A stretch of 29,823 bases of DNA from a virus, in the IMG/VR virus record IMGVR_UViG_3300032213_000871, positions 1-29,823 of that record; one strand, 5' to 3'. The translations under genes were made by a program, and so were the position numbers. Positions 887 through 10,331 of the stretch are shown here, one piece after another; position 1 is the stretch's first letter, and each line of letters begins with the position of its first letter. The notes beneath the pieces were generated by a model that ran no database searches, was not told where the DNA came from, and saw only the letters and a program-made list of their open reading frames with translations.

Positions 887-1457
887 AAGTGTTGACGCCA
901 AGGTCGACGAACTAGAAGCGGCCGCTAAAAAATATGCCTCAAAAGATACTGTAATCTCAATTGGCGGGTATGAATTTACGCCGGCAAAACTTATGGTGGC
1001 TGCCACTATTGTCAGTAGTATACTGGGTGGATTATATGGCACCTTTGAAGTGTACAAAGACTATGTGGGTATGAAGAAAAAGATTGCTGAATATTCGGCA
1101 CCAGACCTGTCAGGCTTTGACAAACGGCTAGCTGTGATCGAAGAAAACTCAGCCAAGACCTCGGACTACACTCGAGACATCAAAACTGACTTGAAGAACG
1201 ATCTACGTCGCAACGAGTCAGTTACAGAACAAGTTGAACGTGGTGTTAAAACAGCTCAACGTGAAACTGAACAAGAAATGCGTGATATGCGCAAGGCAGT
1301 GCGTGAGGATCTAGAAAAGGCTCGCAACGAAGCCAATGTTATTCGCCGAGAAATGGCCGACGCACGTAGAGAAATTGAGCGCGAAGTTGTTCAGTTAAAG
1401 AAAGAAGTTGATAGCAAGATACAAAAAGCCATTGACAATCCACTGGCTAACAAGTAA
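870..1457 (+). CDS. Membrane-anchored coiled-coil protein, 195 aa
   Basis: ATG at 870 is preferred over the in-frame TTG at 858, because GGAG sits 6 nt upstream of it and the product then starts MSEEIKSVDAKV. Residues about 35-65 contain a hydrophobic stretch (LMVAATIVSSILGGLYG), consistent with one membrane span. The rest, from about residue 75, is highly charged with heptad-like Leu/Ile/Val spacing and many Glu/Arg/Lys residues, typical of a long coiled coil. Similar proteins occur in T4-like marine phages as far as I recall, without known function. The 3' end overlaps the end of the convergent racemase gene by 11 nt. Confidence 0.75.
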   Translation: MSEEIKSVDAKVDELEAAAKKYASKDTVISIGGYEFTPAKLMVAATIVSSILGGLYGTFEVYKDYVGMKKKIAEYSAPDLSGFDKRLAVIEENSAKTSDYTRDIKTDLKNDLRRNESVTEQVERGVKTAQRETEQEMRDMRKAVREDLEKARNEANVIRREMADARREIEREVVQLKKEVDSKIQKAIDNPLANK

Positions 1458-2124
1458 GTGCAGCCTGTACCAGGCTGTCTATACTGTTGACAATGGGAAT
1501 ATTTTCTTTTTGAGTATCACTGATAGCCAAGGGCAATTCAGTACAACCTAGTACTACGGCCCTTGCTCCACGATCTATTAGACTGTGAATTACTTTCGTT
1601 AGCAATACTTGTGATTCTGCAATTTTACCTGCTTTAATTAAATCAATTGCCGGTTGTACAAAAAAATCCATTTCGGCACGATCCGGAACTATACATCGCC
1701 AACCTTGTTGTTCCAATCTGTCTTGATAGATGCCATGTTCAATTGTGCCCTGCGTACCCATAATGCCAATGGTGGTGTTTTCAATATGTAAACTCTGGAG
1801 TTGATCGGCAATACTGTCTACAATGTGTATGATGGGTACGCCCAGTTTAACTAATTGATCATACCAGAAGTGTGCAGAGTTGCAAGGAATAACAATACGA
1901 CTGCATCCTGCGGCTTTTAATCCTCGAATACCATCCTCTAGCCAAGGCAGTGGATCATCATTGCCGGCTTGCATGGCAGCACTGCGATCAGGGATGCGTG
2001 GTTCGTTCCACAGCACAAACGGTATGTGTTCCTGATCGCAAGTAGCAGGTGTTTGCTTTATGAGTCTTGTAATAAACTCTGCGCTGGCAGCAGGTCCCAT
2101 TCCACCAAGTATGCCCAGTTTCAT
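1447..2124 (-). CDS. Aspartate/glutamate racemase family protein
   Basis: The 225-aa product has the usual length of the Asp/Glu racemase family. It starts MKLGILGGMGPAASAEF, the characteristic N-terminal glycine loop. It carries both catalytic cysteines in context: Cys81 in IPCNSAHFWY and Cys194 in VLGCTELPLA. These enzymes are cofactor-independent and use two thiols to interconvert L- and D-aspartate or glutamate; the exact substrate cannot be read from the sequence. The start overlaps the upstream stop (ATGA) and lacks a clear ribosome site, so translation is probably coupled. It is the last gene of a four-gene unit with a periplasmic binding protein and an SLC1-type symporter. Confidence 0.88.
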   Translation of the reverse strand: MKLGILGGMGPAASAEFITRLIKQTPATCDQEHIPFVLWNEPRIPDRSAAMQAGNDDPLPWLEDGIRGLKAAGCSRIVIPCNSAHFWYDQLVKLGVPIIHIVDSIADQLQSLHIENTTIGIMGTQGTIEHGIYQDRLEQQGWRCIVPDRAEMDFFVQPAIDLIKAGKIAESQVLLTKVIHSLIDRGARAVVLGCTELPLAISDTQKENIPIVNSIDSLVQAALTC

Positions 2125-2723
2125 TTTTTAAACAACAATGATGACGCAATGACCAGTGCAGTTTGTGCGGCCTCTACATCATCCGGCTGTTGTTTCCACC
2201 CCACGCTAATTTGTCCTATAAACACTCCGGGTTCAGCCGGCACACTTATACGACACATGTAGTTTACTCCGTTGTCTTTGTATACAAAGCCAATTTGGCT
2301 CTGTGGTTTCAGGTAAGGGCTGCAAGGAATTTTTCCAGACATGAGTCCTATCACATCGTTGTTGTTGTCATAGTTTTTACTAAACAGACCAACATCCAGG
2401 CCGTCGTGGCTTTTGTTTCTGCCACCATTGCGTGTGGACAAGAACACAATTTTTCTTGTGTTCACCAAGGTATTGACTTCCATGATAGACATCAGCTCTA
2501 TATCAGTATGCTTCAACAAGAAATTGTAGGCTTCCTCGTATCGACCGTTCATCTTGGGCAGGGCCTGCTGGGCCCGATAAGTTGCCATCATGGCATCTTT
2601 CTCTGAATAAACAAACCAGCCTGCAAAGCCCAGAACGCACAGTAATATCACTGTGAATAATCTAAATGGACTTTGCCCAATCCAGTTTAGTATTTCAAGC
2701 AGGGCTTCTTTGATCTTGTCCAT
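2121..2723 (-). CDS. Membrane-anchored hypothetical protein, 200 aa
   Basis: ATG at 2723 (MDKIKEALLEIL) is chosen over a TTG further upstream. It overlaps the 3' end of the symporter gene by 29 nt. A hydrophobic segment around residues 20-40 (LFTVILLCVLGFAGWFVY) predicts one N-terminal membrane anchor. The remainder looks globular and soluble, with VNYMCRISVP and FIGQISVGWKQQPDD near the end. That ending is faintly reminiscent of small sensor folds (GAF/Cache-like), but I cannot assign a family. Tight packing between the transporter and racemase genes suggests that all four are expressed together. Its topology, whether periplasmic or cytoplasmic, is undetermined. Confidence 0.75.
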   Translation of the reverse strand: MDKIKEALLEILNWIGQSPFRLFTVILLCVLGFAGWFVYSEKDAMMATYRAQQALPKMNGRYEEAYNFLLKHTDIELMSIMEVNTLVNTRKIVFLSTRNGGRNKSHDGLDVGLFSKNYDNNNDVIGLMSGKIPCSPYLKPQSQIGFVYKDNGVNYMCRISVPAEPGVFIGQISVGWKQQPDDVEAAQTALVIASSLLFKK

Positions 2724-3984
2724 GTTCAGATTCTTTGTCGCACACAAACGCTGTTACTGCAACGTTGCCATGCACATGACTTGCTGTGCGAATCATGTCC
2801 ATCAATGGATCAACTGCAATCAACAACACCAATACTGCTTCGCTTGGTAACTTTAGTAAATCACAAACAACTGCCACTGTGGCCACTGTGAGAATACCTG
2901 TTGTGCCGGCCGATGCTAGACCAGCAAGTATACTACCAAACAACACAACAATCAACCCGGTAAATCCCAATGGTGCGTCATAGATGTTGGCAATGAACAC
3001 TGTGGCAATGGCATAGTACACAATACTGCCAATGCGGTTAACAGTGAAACTCAGTGGCACTGTTAGTTCAACGCCACCTTTGTCAAACTTTAATTTATGT
3101 AGGGCTTCCTGTGCGTAAGGGATACAGGCCAAACTACTGCGTGAACTAATTGCAACAATCAACGTTTCTTTAGTTTCTTTAACAACAGTGCCCAGGCTCA
3201 GGCCAGAACGCCACCAAATTACCACAGTTCCTGCTATAACAACTAGTAGTCCACCAATGAACTGTTGCATCACAAAGTCAAACATGGTCATAAAAATACC
3301 CACGCCAACTTTGCCTACCTGTGCTGAAATCATTGCTAACAATGCAACGGGCAGGAAGTAGTTAAGAAACTTGAATATGCTGATACTGGCCTGCTGAATA
3401 CTCTTCAGTACTTCTACCAACATCTTTTGGCCTTCTGTTTTAAGATGCCCTAGTGCTACACCAAAGATCAAACAGAAAATCACAATCTTCAAACTCTCAC
3501 CATTGTTTAGTGTGTTGAAAATGTTTTCTGGAATAAACTTCTCTGCCATCTTGCCTGCATTAACTTCTGCTGCCACTGGCATGGGTTCTTTGAGTGTGAT
3601 ATTCAAGTCAGTACCGGTGTCTTTGCTGTTGACCAAGGCGCCTAGTTGTGTTTTCTTCTCTGGGGTCATTTCGGATCCCGTAACAACAACTGTGCCCACA
3701 CCAATCACAGCGGCCAGGAACATACTAGATACAAAGCCAATGATGATTTTGCGTATCAGTGTTTGACTGCCTTCTTTTTGTAGCAGGCCAATGATGCCTA
3801 CAAGGATAGTGGCCAACAAGAATGGCAACACAACCACTTTGAGCAGACTGATATAGATACCACCAATGCTTTCAAAGTTCATGCTGAAGGCTGGCGCATA
3901 CACACCTGCCAGTACGCCCACAATGATGGAACCAAGTATGGTCCACGGGCTGGTTAAAAACGTTTTTAAATTTGCGGTTGTCAT
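2695..3984 (-). CDS. Dicarboxylate/amino acid:cation symporter (DAACS/SLC1 family)
   Basis: The 429-aa product has the family's usual length and many hydrophobic segments from residue 14 to 412. Family landmarks are visible: an HP1-like serine-rich hairpin (AISSRSSLACIPYAQEAL, about 278-295), an HP2-like ASAGTTGILTVAT (about 357-369), and the TM8 signature DPLMDMIRTASHVHGNV (392-408). Asp396 and Arg399-Thr400 match the substrate-binding Asp/Arg/Thr of acidic amino acid carriers. The TM7 signature NMDGT is replaced by NRIGS (316-320), and the usual NVxGD is HVHGN. Such proteins sit in the inner membrane and import acidic amino acids or dicarboxylates. AGGA lies about 7 nt before the ATG. The binding-protein gene ends 9 nt upstream. 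Confidence 0.88.
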   Translation of the reverse strand: MTTANLKTFLTSPWTILGSIIVGVLAGVYAPAFSMNFESIGGIYISLLKVVVLPFLLATILVGIIGLLQKEGSQTLIRKIIIGFVSSMFLAAVIGVGTVVVTGSEMTPEKKTQLGALVNSKDTGTDLNITLKEPMPVAAEVNAGKMAEKFIPENIFNTLNNGESLKIVIFCLIFGVALGHLKTEGQKMLVEVLKSIQQASISIFKFLNYFLPVALLAMISAQVGKVGVGIFMTMFDFVMQQFIGGLLVVIAGTVVIWWRSGLSLGTVVKETKETLIVAISSRSSLACIPYAQEALHKLKFDKGGVELTVPLSFTVNRIGSIVYYAIATVFIANIYDAPLGFTGLIVVLFGSILAGLASAGTTGILTVATVAVVCDLLKLPSEAVLVLLIAVDPLMDMIRTASHVHGNVAVTAFVCDKESEHGQDQRSPA

Positions 3985-3993
3985 GATGTGTCC

Positions 3994-4812
3994 TTATTTC
4001 TTTTCTGCTTTGTAACGGTCCATTAACTTCCTGGTGTCAATAGTACTGTATTCATTCTTGATCACATAATCCACAATGCTCAACAACTGAGTAGATTTGT
4101 TGTTGACTGCCACAGCAATATTGTCCACGCTGTCAGAGATAGTGATTGACTTTGTGGTAATTGCCGCATCGGGTTTTTCAAACGCAATCTTCTTGATTTC
4201 AAATTCGTCACGGTAAGCTGCCGCAATGTCTCCGCGAGTAACTTTGTCAATAATTACATCCCACTTGTCTTCGGGAAGGAACACAGCATTAGGAAAGTTT
4301 ACTCTGGCAAATGTGTCGTAACTGGAGTTACGGATAAAACTGATCTTGCCATTAAAGTCACGGATAACTTGATATGTTTCTTTGCCTTGCGAGTTTTGAC
4401 TCAGCCAAAGTCGATTGATAACCAAGCTCTGTCTTAATCGAACATAAGGTGTGCTGAACTTGACCACTTGTAGTCTAGGTCCTGTTACTGATAACTTGCT
4501 CACAGCAATGTCTGCCGCGCCTGCACGAACCTGTTCTACAACTTCGGCAAAGCTCTCGGCATCACGTCTGAACTGCACAGGAACGCCAAGCATGACTCCA
4601 ATGCGTCGAGCAATTTCAACGTCAAGACCTTTGATATCATCCTCGCCACCTGAAAAGAACGGAGGGTTATCTTTTTTGGTCATTGCCACAACAAGCACAT
4701 TGGCTTTTTTAATTGCGGCAATATCAGCAGGTAGTGGTACTGGTGATCCGGGCATCTGTGCCGAAGCAACAGAAGCTAACAATAATAATGCAGAAGCGAT
4801 TAGTTTTTTCAT
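3994..4812 (-). CDS. Periplasmic solute-binding protein, polar amino acid type
   Basis: The product starts MKKLIASALLLLASVASAQ, a clear Sec signal peptide with probable cleavage after ASA. An ATG 12 nt upstream (4824) is an alternative start; I prefer 4812 because a weak GGA lies before it. The mature part resembles family 3 (amino acid) binding proteins of ABC systems: KGLDVEIARRIGVMLGVPV, then ADIAVSKLSVTGPRLQVV and KFSTPYVRLRQSLVINR, and a later GDIAAAYRDEFE. Its usual role is to capture an amino acid in the periplasm. No ABC permease or ATPase is present in the window. It is instead followed by an SLC1-type symporter, an unusual pairing. A late-type promoter with a stem-loop precedes it. 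Confidence 0.85.
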   Translation of the reverse strand: MKKLIASALLLLASVASAQMPGSPVPLPADIAAIKKANVLVVAMTKKDNPPFFSGGEDDIKGLDVEIARRIGVMLGVPVQFRRDAESFAEVVEQVRAGAADIAVSKLSVTGPRLQVVKFSTPYVRLRQSLVINRLWLSQNSQGKETYQVIRDFNGKISFIRNSSYDTFARVNFPNAVFLPEDKWDVIIDKVTRGDIAAAYRDEFEIKKIAFEKPDAAITTKSITISDSVDNIAVAVNNKSTQLLSIVDYVIKNEYSTIDTRKLMDRYKAEKK

Positions 4813-4830
4813 TTGTGTGTCCATAATGTA

Positions 4831-5276: not shown

Positions 5277-6068
5277 ATGCAATTGACATTTGATTTAATT
5301 TCTGACCTACATCTGGGGCCCACAGACACATTTGATTGGACTGGCTTAGCCACCAGCCCGCTGTGTGTGGTTGCCGGCGATATCTCCATGGATGTTGAAA
5401 TAGTCAGAGAAACGTTAGAACATCTCAGCCACTGCTATCAAGCGGTGTTTTATATTGATGGCAACAATGAACATAGATACAGTTTAGATTCACTAACAGA
5501 CAGTTATAACATACTAGAAGAAGCCATTGCAGAAATTGACAATGTGGTATTTTTGCAAGACAATTGTGTTATTGTTAATAACGTTGCATTCATTGGATCC
5601 AATGGTTGGTGGACATATGACTTAGATCAAGAAATCGACGACGAGCAATGTAGATTATGGTATTGTGATGTCATGGATGTTGGCATGCCAGTCACCAGTG
5701 CTATACATAGTATGGCGTACAATGATGCCGCTTATCTTAGTAATAGTATTAAAAAACTTCAAACACATCCTGACGTCAAATCCATTGTTCTTGTTACGCA
5801 TACTGTTCCAAATGTAGAACTAATCGATCATGATATGGAAATTACATCAACATACAAGTTTAATGTTATGGGAAATTCAATTATACCAGTGGTGTTAGAT
5901 GCTGATACAGAAAATAAAGTTAAGACCTGGTGCTTTGGACATTATCACAATCCCATCGACCAGCACCAAAATGGCATCAGATATGTAAACAATTGCCGAG
6001 GGCGAGTTGAAGATTCCTTAGAGTGGACTCTGCCGTACTACCCCAAGCGTATTGTCATTGACGTTTAA
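5277..6068 (+). CDS. Calcineurin-like metallophosphoesterase
   Basis: The 263-aa product shows the metallophosphoesterase motifs in order: SDLHLG (Asp10, His12), AGDIS (Asp35), a GNNEH block near residue 62 in place of the usual GNHE, LVTHT near residue 174, and FGHYHNPID near 222. These residues bind two metal ions that hydrolyse phosphoester bonds. The substrate could be nucleic acid, a nucleotide or phosphoprotein and is not determined. It is the only rightward gene between 1.5 and 20 kb. Its stop overlaps the convergent clpS stop. No Shine-Dalgarno sequence precedes the ATG, but a TAAATA box ends 6 nt upstream, so the transcript may be leaderless. Confidence 0.85.
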   Translation: MQLTFDLISDLHLGPTDTFDWTGLATSPLCVVAGDISMDVEIVRETLEHLSHCYQAVFYIDGNNEHRYSLDSLTDSYNILEEAIAEIDNVVFLQDNCVIVNNVAFIGSNGWWTYDLDQEIDDEQCRLWYCDVMDVGMPVTSAIHSMAYNDAAYLSNSIKKLQTHPDVKSIVLVTHTVPNVELIDHDMEITSTYKFNVMGNSIIPVVLDADTENKVKTWCFGHYHNPIDQHQNGIRYVNNCRGRVEDSLEWTLPYYPKRIVIDV

Positions 6069-6370
6069 TGTGTAGTTTCGGGTTCTAATTTAATCTGCAA
6101 CGGATAATCGTTGCTACGAGCATCCAGCGTAACTTCAATTCCTTTTTGTTCAGCAATTTCGTAAGGCAAAATTGCCACAACTGCAGACCCAGAATTGTGA
6201 ATATCTTCAGTGATTGCTACAGCAGTTTCAGCAGTGTATTCAAAGTGTTGTATCAAACTTTCAACTACAAAATCTACAGATGTTTTATTGTCGTTCAAGT
6301 AGATAATTTTAAACAACGGTGGCTCACGTAATTCTACTTTTGATTTTGACACTGTATTTGTATCTGCCAT
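6065..6370 (-). CDS. clpS: ClpS-like adaptor for ClpAP (N-degron recognition)
   Basis: ATG at 6370 has AAGGA 7 nt upstream and gives 101 aa, the usual ClpS size; the GTG at 6397 lies in the leader hairpin. The core PPLFKIIYLNDNKTSVDFVV matches the ClpS fold start, and IHNSG supplies the conserved His (His58, E. coli His66). Asn26-Asp27 align with the E. coli pair that grips the N-terminal amine. The gatekeeper Met40 is Val32 here, and E. coli Asp36 is Asn28. ClpS delivers proteins with destabilising N-terminal residues to ClpAP. No clpA or clpP is in the window, so it would have to act on the host protease, by activating, redirecting or competing. Confidence 0.85.
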   Translation of the reverse strand: MADTNTVSKSKVELREPPLFKIIYLNDNKTSVDFVVESLIQHFEYTAETAVAITEDIHNSGSAVVAILPYEIAEQKGIEVTLDARSNDYPLQIKLEPETTH

Positions 6371-6387
6371 TTTATATCCTTTGTTAT

Positions 6388-6418
6388 GTGGGGACACCGC
6401 GTCCCCACAGTATTTACT
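6388..6418 (-). promoter_or_regulatory. Late-type promoter and strong 5' stem-loop for clpS
   Basis: On the minus strand, AGTAAATA (6411-6418) is followed 2 nt later by an 8-bp perfect GC-rich hairpin GTGGGGAC-GCGGT-GTCCCCAC (6388-6408), then AAGGA and the clpS ATG. There is no T run, so it is not a terminator. Confidence 0.6.
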
Positions 6419-6424
6419 ATTATA

Positions 6425-6880
6425 TTAAGAAGTGTAAGTGATTGCAATAGCCTTTGGCTTGGCTTCTTCTGGAATTTCACGTTTTAAGTAAATGTTCAGA
6501 ATGCCCAGTTCAAGATGCGCATTGGTAATTTCCACATGGTCTGCTAGTTGAAACTCTCTGCGAAAACTACGCTCGCTAATGCCTTTGTGCAGATATTTTG
6601 TAGTATCTTCATTCTCTACCGTTTCTCGATTGTGCTTGCCTTCGACTATTAAGACTTTCTTATCTTTAGTAACAGAAAGATCGTTATAGCCAAAGCCAGC
6701 AACAGCCACACTGATCATGTACTCGTCGTCATTTACTTGTACAATGTCATAAGGTGGGTAATTAGTGTTGCCTTGTTGTGCGCTTACACGCATGAGATCA
6801 TCAAACATGTTATCGAAACCGATACCAAATTTGTGTAGTGCAGGAATGTCAAAACTACGAAGTGTTAATGTTTTAGTCAT
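6425..6880 (-). CDS. Small heat-shock protein (Hsp20 / alpha-crystallin family)
   Basis: The 151-aa product contains an alpha-crystallin domain from about residue 42 (PPYDIVQVNDDEYMISVAVA) to residue 135, with the family signature ahead of GILNIYLKREIPEE. The C-terminal tail PKAIAI carries the I-x-I anchor used for oligomer assembly. These chaperones hold unfolding proteins in the cytoplasm without ATP for refolding by GroEL or DnaK. Hsp20 genes are common in T4-like marine phages. AAAGGAG precedes the ATG well. The leader contains a late box and a two-part stem-loop, and its 3' half is almost identical to the leader upstream of groES. ClpS follows downstream. Confidence 0.95.
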   Translation of the reverse strand: MTKTLTLRSFDIPALHKFGIGFDNMFDDLMRVSAQQGNTNYPPYDIVQVNDDEYMISVAVAGFGYNDLSVTKDKKVLIVEGKHNRETVENEDTTKYLHKGISERSFRREFQLADHVEITNAHLELGILNIYLKREIPEEAKPKAIAITYTS

Positions 6881-6883
6881 TTG

Positions 6884-6906
6884 TTTTCTCCTTTATTAAG
6901 CAAGTT
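6884..6906 (-). repeat. Shared leader element, copy A (hsp20)
   Basis: This 23-nt element includes the AAAGGAG ribosome site and matches copy B at 9051-9073 in 22 of 23 positions. It starts with AACTTGCTTAATAAAGG on the minus strand. Confidence 0.85.
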
Positions 6907-6914
6907 GACTATAC

Positions 6915-6954
6915 TGTGTGGACCCGACCATCGGCATCCACACATGTATTTATT
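6915..6954 (-). promoter_or_regulatory. Late-type promoter and 5' stem-loop for hsp20
   Basis: On the minus strand, TAATAAATAC (6946-6954 region) is followed by a hairpin. Its outer stem is TGTGTGGA/TCCACACA (6915-6922 with 6937-6944) and its inner stem is CCGA/TCGG. The hairpin lies at the expected mRNA start, ahead of the shared leader element. Confidence 0.6.
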
Positions 6955-6980: not shown

Positions 6981-8627
<1,647 letters not shown>

Positions 8628-8924
8628 TTATTCTCCTTGATTTACAATTGCCATTACATCGGCTTCATACACGATGTTAAATTCTTCGTTGTTGACTTTG
8701 ACCTTTTGCACAGCAGTCTTGCTAAACAAAATACGATCGCCAACTTTCACTACCATTGGTACCACTGTACCATCTTCGGCAACACGGCCTGTGCCCACAG
8801 CAAGTACATCACCTTGACTGGGTTTTTCCGCGGCCGCATCCGGAATAATCAGGCCACTGGCAGTTTTAGTTTCTGCTTCGATCAATCGCACAACAATACG
8901 ATCACGGATAGGGATTAATTTCAT
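8628..8924 (-). CDS. groES: GroES co-chaperonin
   Basis: ATG at 8924 has AAGGA 6 nt upstream and gives 98 aa, matching bacterial GroES (about 95-97 aa); a longer upstream extension has no support. The product starts [19 protein letters not shown]. The mobile loop follows ([21 protein letters not shown]), with the hydrophobic Leu-Ile-Ile tripeptide that docks onto GroEL. The roof and C-terminal region ends [14 protein letters not shown]. It caps the GroEL ring. A consensus sigma70 promoter lies 33-61 nt upstream, so groESL can be transcribed by host polymerase independently of the late box further up. Confidence 0.97.
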
Positions 8925-9131: not shown

Positions 9132-10331
9132 TTAAGAATTTTGTTGTTCTAGATTAATAGGTGTAGCAACTTGTGTTTTATCAATCGCAATCTTTAAGAT
9201 ATTGCGCGATTGATAGTCTTTCAAGTTGTACATATGAGGCAGTAACACTCGTTCAAGTTCTGTGTGCAATCCGCGAGCACCAGTTTTGGTAGTGATTGTA
9301 CGTTCTGCAATTAAATCTATGCTGTCGGCATCAAAGTCCAAGGCCACGCCATCTTGGTTAAACAACCATCTGTACTGCCCGACCAAGTTGTTTTTTACTT
9401 CTGTCAGGATAGTTATAAGTTGAGATTTGGTTAATTCTTCCAACTGTATAATAGATGGGAAACGTCCCACAAATTCAGGAATCATTCCGTAACGCACTAG
9501 ATCGTCAGGAGTAATTGCATCAGATGCGGCTTCTTTGACGGTGCTGGCACCAAACCCAATTGATGTTACTTGTGTACGTGCTTTGATTACTTTGTCAAGT
9601 CCAACAAACGCACCTCCCACAATAAAAAGTATGTTGGCTGTATCAATGTCAATGGTTTCACTGCTGGATGTTTTACGAACACCTTGATTCGGCACTTTGC
9701 ATCGTGTACCTTCAATCAGTTTAAGCAGTGCTTGCTGAACACCTTCACCACTCACGTCACGTGATACTGTACTGCTTTCGCCTTTACGAGCAATCTTGTC
9801 TACTTCGTCAAGGAACACAATTCCACGCTGTGTGCGTTCAACGTCGTTGCCACTGGCATGATACAATCTAGCAATTAAACTGTCAACATCGTCACCTACG
9901 TATCCTGCTTCTGTCAGTGTAGTGGCATCTGCAATAACAAACGGCACATCCAAGTATTTGGCCACTGTGCGAGCCATTAGTGTTTTACCTGTGCCTGTTG
10001 GGCCAGTCATTAAGATGTTGGCTTTTTGTATTTCGTTTTCAGGATCTGGATTGCCAATGCGTTTGTAGTGATTGGCAATTGCTACACTCAGCACAATCTT
10101 GGCCCGGGGTTGTCCAATAACATATTGGTCCAAGTACTGGTGTATTTCACGTGGATCTAGTACAGACTCTGCTGTGGATTTTTTGGCATGTTCTTTTGAC
10201 AGCAACAGTCCGTGGCAAAATTCCACACATTCATTGCATATACCAACATTGTGTCCTACAATTAATTTGCCCACTTGATCTTTGTGCTTGTTACAAAAAT
10301 TACAATGCGTAGGCGTTGTTTTAGCGATCAT
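9132..10331 (-). CDS. clpX: ClpX-like AAA+ unfoldase
   Basis: The 399-aa product has the full ClpX architecture. There is an N-terminal C4 zinc domain (Cys10, 13, 32, 35). The AAA+ core has Walker A GPTGTGKT (110-117), pore-1 loop GYVG (143-146), Walker B VFLDEVDK (172-179) and sensor-2 GARGL (351-355). The IGF tripeptide that docks ClpX onto ClpP is intact (258-260). The second pore-side loop reads RKT where E. coli has RKH. It is slightly shorter than E. coli ClpX (424 aa) and lacks much of the tail. ClpX unfolds tagged substrates and feeds them to ClpP. No clpP is seen here, so host ClpP is the likely partner. ATG lies 1 nt after the upstream stop. Confidence 0.95.
   Translation of the reverse strand: MIAKTTPTHCNFCNKHKDQVGKLIVGHNVGICNECVEFCHGLLLSKEHAKKSTAESVLDPREIHQYLDQYVIGQPRAKIVLSVAIANHYKRIGNPDPENEIQKANILMTGPTGTGKTLMARTVAKYLDVPFVIADATTLTEAGYVGDDVDSLIARLYHASGNDVERTQRGIVFLDEVDKIARKGESSTVSRDVSGEGVQQALLKLIEGTRCKVPNQGVRKTSSSETIDIDTANILFIVGGAFVGLDKVIKARTQVTSIGFGASTVKEAASDAITPDDLVRYGMIPEFVGRFPSIIQLEELTKSQLITILTEVKNNLVGQYRWLFNQDGVALDFDADSIDLIAERTITTKTGARGLHTELERVLLPHMYNLKDYQSRNILKIAIDKTQVATPINLEQQNS

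Follow-up and report, generated by a model that had tools for sequence, protein, structure and literature searches.

A ClpS adaptor with an altered pocket in a giant freshwater-type phage and its probable place in a phage-encoded Clp protease

ClpS is an adaptor that reads the N-terminal amino acid of proteins and on that basis selects them for degradation. In the E. coli protein the gatekeeper Met40 excludes beta-branched residues (PMC12493166), and variation at the gatekeeper and in the pocket accompanies changed specificity in the ClpS of cyanobacteria, plastids and apicoplasts (PMC7966870). Thus, both Synechococcus ClpS2 and Plasmodium ClpS take Ile, the former also Val, and Arabidopsis ClpS1, with an Arg gatekeeper, has a restricted range (PMC7966870). 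Among phages, a 2018 account of the Agrobacterium jumbo phage Atu_ph07 lists ClpX, ClpA, ClpB, a ClpP and ClpS (PMC6102473), and Iyer et al. 2021 (PMC7824862) described the ClpS of certain jumbo phages, present instead of ClpP, as probably an adaptor of the host ClpAP. Given these two reports, the Clp kit of phages is not new as a list. The literature searched, with many subscription papers lying outside it, held no account of a clade-wide change of the ClpS pocket or of a shifting gatekeeper, and none of ClpS in a self-contained phage N-degron protease.

The clpS gene, its neighbours and leader RNAs

We have analyzed a stretch of 29,823 nucleotides (IMG/VR record IMGVR_UViG_3300032213_000871, hereafter the window) from a giant freshwater-type phage that carries a gene for the small adaptor ClpS (Table 1). 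The gene has a ribosome-binding site (AAAGGA) just 5' of its start, and its product is a genuine ClpS by fold and family. The protein scored 73.4 bits against Pfam ClpS (PF02617; cut-off 23, E 1.3e-20) and also matched PHROG 27368, while remaining below all the NCBIfam ClpS equivalog models (best 71 bits, cut-off 149). Its closest solved relatives are the ClpS of E. coli and Caulobacter. The AlphaFold2 model had a pLDDT of 87.8, low at residues 1–5, and Foldseek aligned the predicted fold to Caulobacter ClpS 3gq0 with an rmsd of 0.6 A and a TM of 0.98 (target length); it also superposes on structures of the M53A gatekeeper mutant (3g1b and 3g3p). The junction that follows the N-terminal extension is of the same kind as in E. 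coli ClpS (PMC9663308). Acquisition from a present-day host was rejected, the best bacterial matches being at most 44% identical. Two bacterial MAGs (L086 and L087) contain a ClpS of the phage clade, 71–73% identical, and are probably cases of phage contigs misplaced in bins.

Table 1. Features of the window around clpS (strand as given; residues in window numbering)
Feature	Position	Strand	Basis or remark
Metallophosphoesterase	5277..6068	+	phrog_1649 E 4e-27; position conserved
clpS, 101 aa	6065..6370	-	PF02617, AlphaFold2 model, Foldseek, residue tables; ATG at 6370, stop ends at 6065
ClpS N-terminal extension, 16 residues, then Pro-Pro junction P17-P18	6317..6370	-	sequence
ClpS pocket residues Y24, L25, N26, D27, N28, T30, V32, V35, T54, I57, H58, L91
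ClpS residues for ClpA docking E71, E74, K76
clpS 5' leader RNA hairpin, 9-bp, UGUGGGGAC-GCGGU-GUCCCCACA	6387..6409	-	Shine-Dalgarno not covered
Sigma-70-like clpS promoter TTGCAA-17-TATAAT	6419..6447	-	overlaps end of hsp20
Hsp20 small heat-shock protein	6425..6880	-	phrog_432 E 9e-40
ROSE-like RNA thermometer candidate, hsp20 leader	6875..6943	-	Rfam ROSE_3 (RF02523)
GroEL	6981..8624	-	NCBIfam GroEL over cut-off
GroES	8628..8921	-	phrog_3188 E 4e-25
ClpX	9132..10331	-	NCBIfam ClpX equivalog 507 bits, cut-off 359; zf-C4_ClpX

The neighbourhood is well conserved. We found the order DNA ligase, large membrane protein, ClpX, (GroES, GroEL), Hsp20, ClpS and metallophosphoesterase in ~80 IMG/VR loci, with GroESL as an optional insert present in about a dozen of them. 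The hsp20 gene lies directly upstream of clpS and adjoins it in nearly all relatives, and the conserved block ends at the metallophosphoesterase gene, which is convergent with clpS. The window ClpX has the zinc finger, the GYVG pore loop and the IGF loop for docking on ClpP, as read from its sequence. In the cultured Pseudomonas phage PA5oct, ClpX, Hsp20, ClpS and DNA ligase are found within ~8.5 kb, and in Sinorhizobium phage Phosso Hsp20 is encoded two genes before ClpS. Beyond the metallophosphoesterase, genes for an Asp/Glu racemase, a sodium:dicarboxylate symporter and an amino-acid-binding protein stand together at 1447–4824 (minus strand); this group was not found in the loci of the ~80 relatives and is a putative lineage-specific cassette for amino-acid uptake.

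The leader of hsp20 is a candidate RNA thermometer of the ROSE type. It matched the full ROSE_3 model at 31.8 bits (E 3.7e-5, search over 201 bases), below the gathering score of 43. An anti-Shine-Dalgarno CUUGCU is placed opposite AAGGAG, and the predicted openness of the Shine-Dalgarno increases from 0.35 at 5 C to 0.62 at 42 C. Similar and partly weak ROSE_3 matches, all of them under the gathering score, precede hsp20 or groES at loci of relatives (L016, L018, L045, L065, L069, L070 and L079), and there was none in the groES leader of the window or in L006, L008 and L034. As for clpS, the promoter pattern TTGC[AGT]A-17-TATAAT was detected in 117 of 120 viral loci, with its 17-bp spacing, and across loci it is followed by TAAATAC and then by a hairpin of 8–12 bp. 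This hairpin-type leader is present in the 120 viral loci. In eight of its nine pairs both partners vary (62 cells, compared to 16.6 in shuffles), a covariation signal that collapses when the hairpin is slid. A thermometer was rejected here, the Shine-Dalgarno being predicted open at all temperatures, and for that reason the clpS hairpin looks like a 5' stabiliser or a processing signal.

The pocket across the viral clade and in bacteria

Pocket positions are those quoted in PMC12493166 for Caulobacter ClpS, converted to E. coli numbering by an offset of 13. The alignment to E. coli ClpS bore out the residues on which the original prediction was built, i.e., a real ClpS core in which the Asn-Asp pair (N26 and D27, equivalent to N34 and D35) and His58 (H66) are kept, together with a gatekeeper Met40 replaced by Val32 and an Asp36 replaced by Asn (N28). 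Three other pocket positions are changed, Y24 for L32, T54 for M62 and I57 for V65. The alpha-amino contacts N34 and H66 are preserved as N26 and H58; Asp36 (Caulobacter Asp49), also such a contact, is not. Asp36 is usual in the ClpS family and not defining for membership; its loss could abolish N-degron binding, since this residue contacts the alpha-amino group in Caulobacter ClpS. Glu79 and Lys84, the ClpA-docking residues in structures of ClpS with the ClpA N-domain, are kept as E71 and K76.

We compared 97 different viral ClpS, all from the clade of the window protein, with 149 distinct bacterial ClpS, 83 of them from genomes spread evenly over Pseudomonadota (positions hereafter in E. coli numbering). 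N34, D35, T38, V43, H66 and L99 were invariant in all 97 viral proteins, and so were the docking positions E79, E82 and K84, which match bacterial ClpS. L32 is Tyr in 97/97 viral ClpS and never Tyr in the 83 from Pseudomonadota; M62 is Thr in 96/97, compared to Met in 78/83. Asp36 is retained by 82/83 Pseudomonadota and only 8/97 viral ClpS, the remaining viral proteins having Asn (78), Ser (8), Thr (2) or Glu (1). V65 is Ile in the whole viral clade, a residue also found in 28/83 Pseudomonadota. The gatekeeper is Met in 67 viral ClpS, Val in 12, Tyr in 7, Ile in 6, Leu and Ala in 2 each and Ser in 1, against Met in 83/83 Pseudomonadota. No bacterial ClpS in the sample has the pocket of the window protein.

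A Val that is usual in the ClpS of the host would have spoken against the original prediction; in the bacterial sample, Val was found in none of the 149 ClpS, the 83 of Pseudomonadota included. The changed gatekeeper is real, but Val did not hold up as a feature of the phages in general, with Met kept by 67/97 relatives. The clade-wide changes of the pocket are L32Y, M62T and D36N rather than the Val gatekeeper. Outside this clade, second ClpS copies in seven Pseudomonadota genomes (L293–L299) all have an Arg gatekeeper and Ala65 and form a distinct paralogue group, and Vibrio phage 2.275.O (L084), which also has ClpA and ClpP, encodes a divergent ClpS-like protein with a Phe gatekeeper and Asp in place of His66.

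When the gatekeeper column was left out of the tree, the viral clade had a support of 97, and the window ClpS fell in a clade of nine rows (SH-aLRT 99) that is uniform for Val. Parsimony required ~15 changes at the gatekeeper (12 if scored as Met versus not-Met), a count that is soft given that the tree is short and poorly resolved; six different non-Met gatekeepers imply at least six changes. By the same procedure there were no changes at columns 32, 34, 35, 38, 43, 65, 66 and 99, and one at 62. Pairwise dN/dS within the Val clade was between 0.01 and 0.08, indicating purifying selection, and these values together with the support for the nine-row clade exclude a sequencing error or a pseudogene. 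As most relatives keep Met40, the Val could be drift, i.e., a near-neutral replacement without consequence, with specificity set by other residues. The coexistence of Met, Val, Ile, Leu, Ala, Ser and Tyr in the clade, several of them near in size, fits such a reading. We nevertheless consider it unlikely: a site frozen as Met throughout the Pseudomonadota sample shows that Val is no random change at an unconstrained position, the Val clade shows no exception, and substitution of the gatekeeper alters specificity in other ClpS (PMC7966870, PMC12493166).

Phage ClpA and ClpP and the proposed role

The original prediction had host ClpAP as the partner of this adaptor, and in that form it was not supported. 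All 11 near-complete relatives (contigs of 315–364 kb) encode a Clp_N protein of 754–774 aa and two ClpPs. Both ClpPs are also present on the 81-kb contig G013, whose ClpS is 99% identical to that of the window; clpA is not on this contig, and any copy would be outside it. Neither clpA nor clpP is found in the window, which is a 30-kb fragment of the phage genome. The best match of the relatives' ClpA was TIGR02639 ClpA, at 782–792 bits and below the equivalog cut-off of 993, and their identity to E. coli ClpA was 39–44%. They have a Clp_N domain and two AAA+ modules with Walker A and B in both rings, and keep the KYR and GYVG pore loops as well as the IGF loop that docks on ClpP. In the two nearest to the window the residue aligned to E23 is Ala or Gly, and E28 and T81 are kept (E. 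coli numbering). All three are presumably ClpS contacts, and the replacement of E23 suggests that docking of ClpS may also be adjusted in the window lineage.

ClpP1 and ClpP2 keep the triad Ser97, His122 and Asp171, with all ten phage ClpPs aligned (PF00574). At four loci (L256, L257, L258 and L260, of genomes G001, G002, G006 and G010) the two clpP genes are within a few kb of each other. In the pairs one ClpP is canonical and the other divergent, with the triad intact in both; the two may form a mixed ClpP1P2 ring, or the second may have a prohead-type role.

The annotated phages with a clpS amounted to 13 true phage records belonging to three lineages; 13/13 have a ClpA-like protein, which occurs in only ~100 of 50,697 records. 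"Acinetobacter phage MD-2021a" (L083; CAKLQF020000008.1 and CAKLQH020000043.1) was left uncounted, since its clpS-clpA, argC and ilvA mark it as bacterial chromosome labelled as phage. This co-occurrence, and the ClpA and ClpP of the relatives, indicate that ClpAP of the phage itself is the probable partner of the adaptor. A leucyl/phenylalanyl transferase was absent from the 15 records examined and was rejected as the phage's N-degron maker, so that N-degrons, if any, would come from elsewhere. Peptide deformylase was discarded as a constant partner, being present in 2/15 records only. In one relative its gene lies directly before clpA (G012, contig C1, 149998–150435), and in the jumbo phage Phosso (W02) another, at 124967–125404, is located just before the gene of the ClpA-like protein (125484–127730).

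We favor, with a probability of about 0.6, that the window ClpS serves as N-degron adaptor in a ClpSAP protease encoded by the phage, and that its pocket is shifted. It would dock on the N-domain of ClpA, most likely the phage's own, and pass on proteins that begin with particular residues, to be unfolded and then degraded in the phage ClpP. L32Y, M62T, V65I and the lost charge of Asp36 would alter the pocket and the alpha-amino contact clade-wide, and in the window lineage the gatekeeper is changed from Met to Val as well. Asn36 is predicted to weaken the charge-based recognition of the alpha-amino group, and the Val gate with Thr62 to give a roomier entrance in which Ile, and perhaps Val, would be tolerated besides Leu and Phe. 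Three points are inferred: the presence of clpA and clpP in the remainder of this phage's genome, the assembly of the components, and which way specificity has moved.

That the protein works instead with host ClpAP, competing with the host ClpS or supplementing it so that proteins of host or phage reach the host protease, is quite unlikely. It was proposed for phage ClpS by Iyer et al. 2021 (PMC7824862), the docking residues match those of bacteria and the window itself is devoid of clpA; but the near-complete relatives encode both ClpA and ClpP, clpS never appears without clpA in the 13 annotated records, and the ClpS of Iyer et al. stands instead of ClpP while here both are together. More doubtful is a specificity switch or inhibitor that fills the ClpA N-domain and, with its extension, the pore, blocking other substrates. 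E. coli ClpS does inhibit the degradation of ssrA-tagged proteins by ClpAP (PMC9663308), and in the viral clade the docking residues never vary, whereas 89/97 have lost D36. The conservation of N34, D35, T38, V43, H66 and L99 in all 97, however, is hard to explain without a ligand, and the sequestration of the adaptor site contemplated originally is not supported in the form in which it was put, though possible. Very improbable is a non-canonical N-recognin that does not demand a free alpha-amino group and feeds blocked N-termini (formyl-Met) to the phage ClpAP, an idea derived from the Asn in place of the Asp36 charge, the pocket opened by M62T and the deformylase gene next to clpA in G012.

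If the adaptor does belong to a phage ClpSAP protease, some giant phages would bring a private degradation system with its own recognition code, beyond borrowing that of the host, set beside chaperone genes apparently under RNA control, and the purpose of phage-encoded Clp proteases would become directly testable. The clade is in addition a collection of natural ClpS variants with seven different gatekeepers, which could help to show how specificity is determined by the pocket and from which binders of N-terminal amino acids could be developed.

Comparison with known systems

With the bacterial ClpS of E. coli and Caulobacter the window protein shares the fold, N34/D35/H66, the docking residues and the Pro-Pro junction; it differs by a Val gatekeeper in place of Met, by L32Y, M62T, V65I and D36N, and by a shorter extension (16 aa). 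Synechococcus ClpS2, Plasmodium ClpS and Arabidopsis ClpS1 have a shifted specificity but are cellular or organellar proteins, and the available part of their account does not report the combination Y32/N36/V40/T62 for any of them (PMC7966870).

Among phages, Atu_ph07 is also a jumbo phage with ClpX, ClpA, a ClpP and ClpS; its account, in the part available, discusses aggregates, replication and assembly, and does not deal with pocket changes, an autonomous N-degron route or a conserved Hsp20-ClpS block (PMC6102473). The PA5oct-like Pseudomonas phages (Wroclawvirus) likewise have ClpX, Hsp20, ClpS and DNA ligase in one region, ClpA and ClpP elsewhere, and Asn at D36. Their ClpS is 27% identical and has a Met gatekeeper, FtsH is added and a single ClpP was found. 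Finally, in contrast to the phage ClpS described by Iyer et al., the clade of the window has ClpS, ClpA, ClpX and two ClpPs together.
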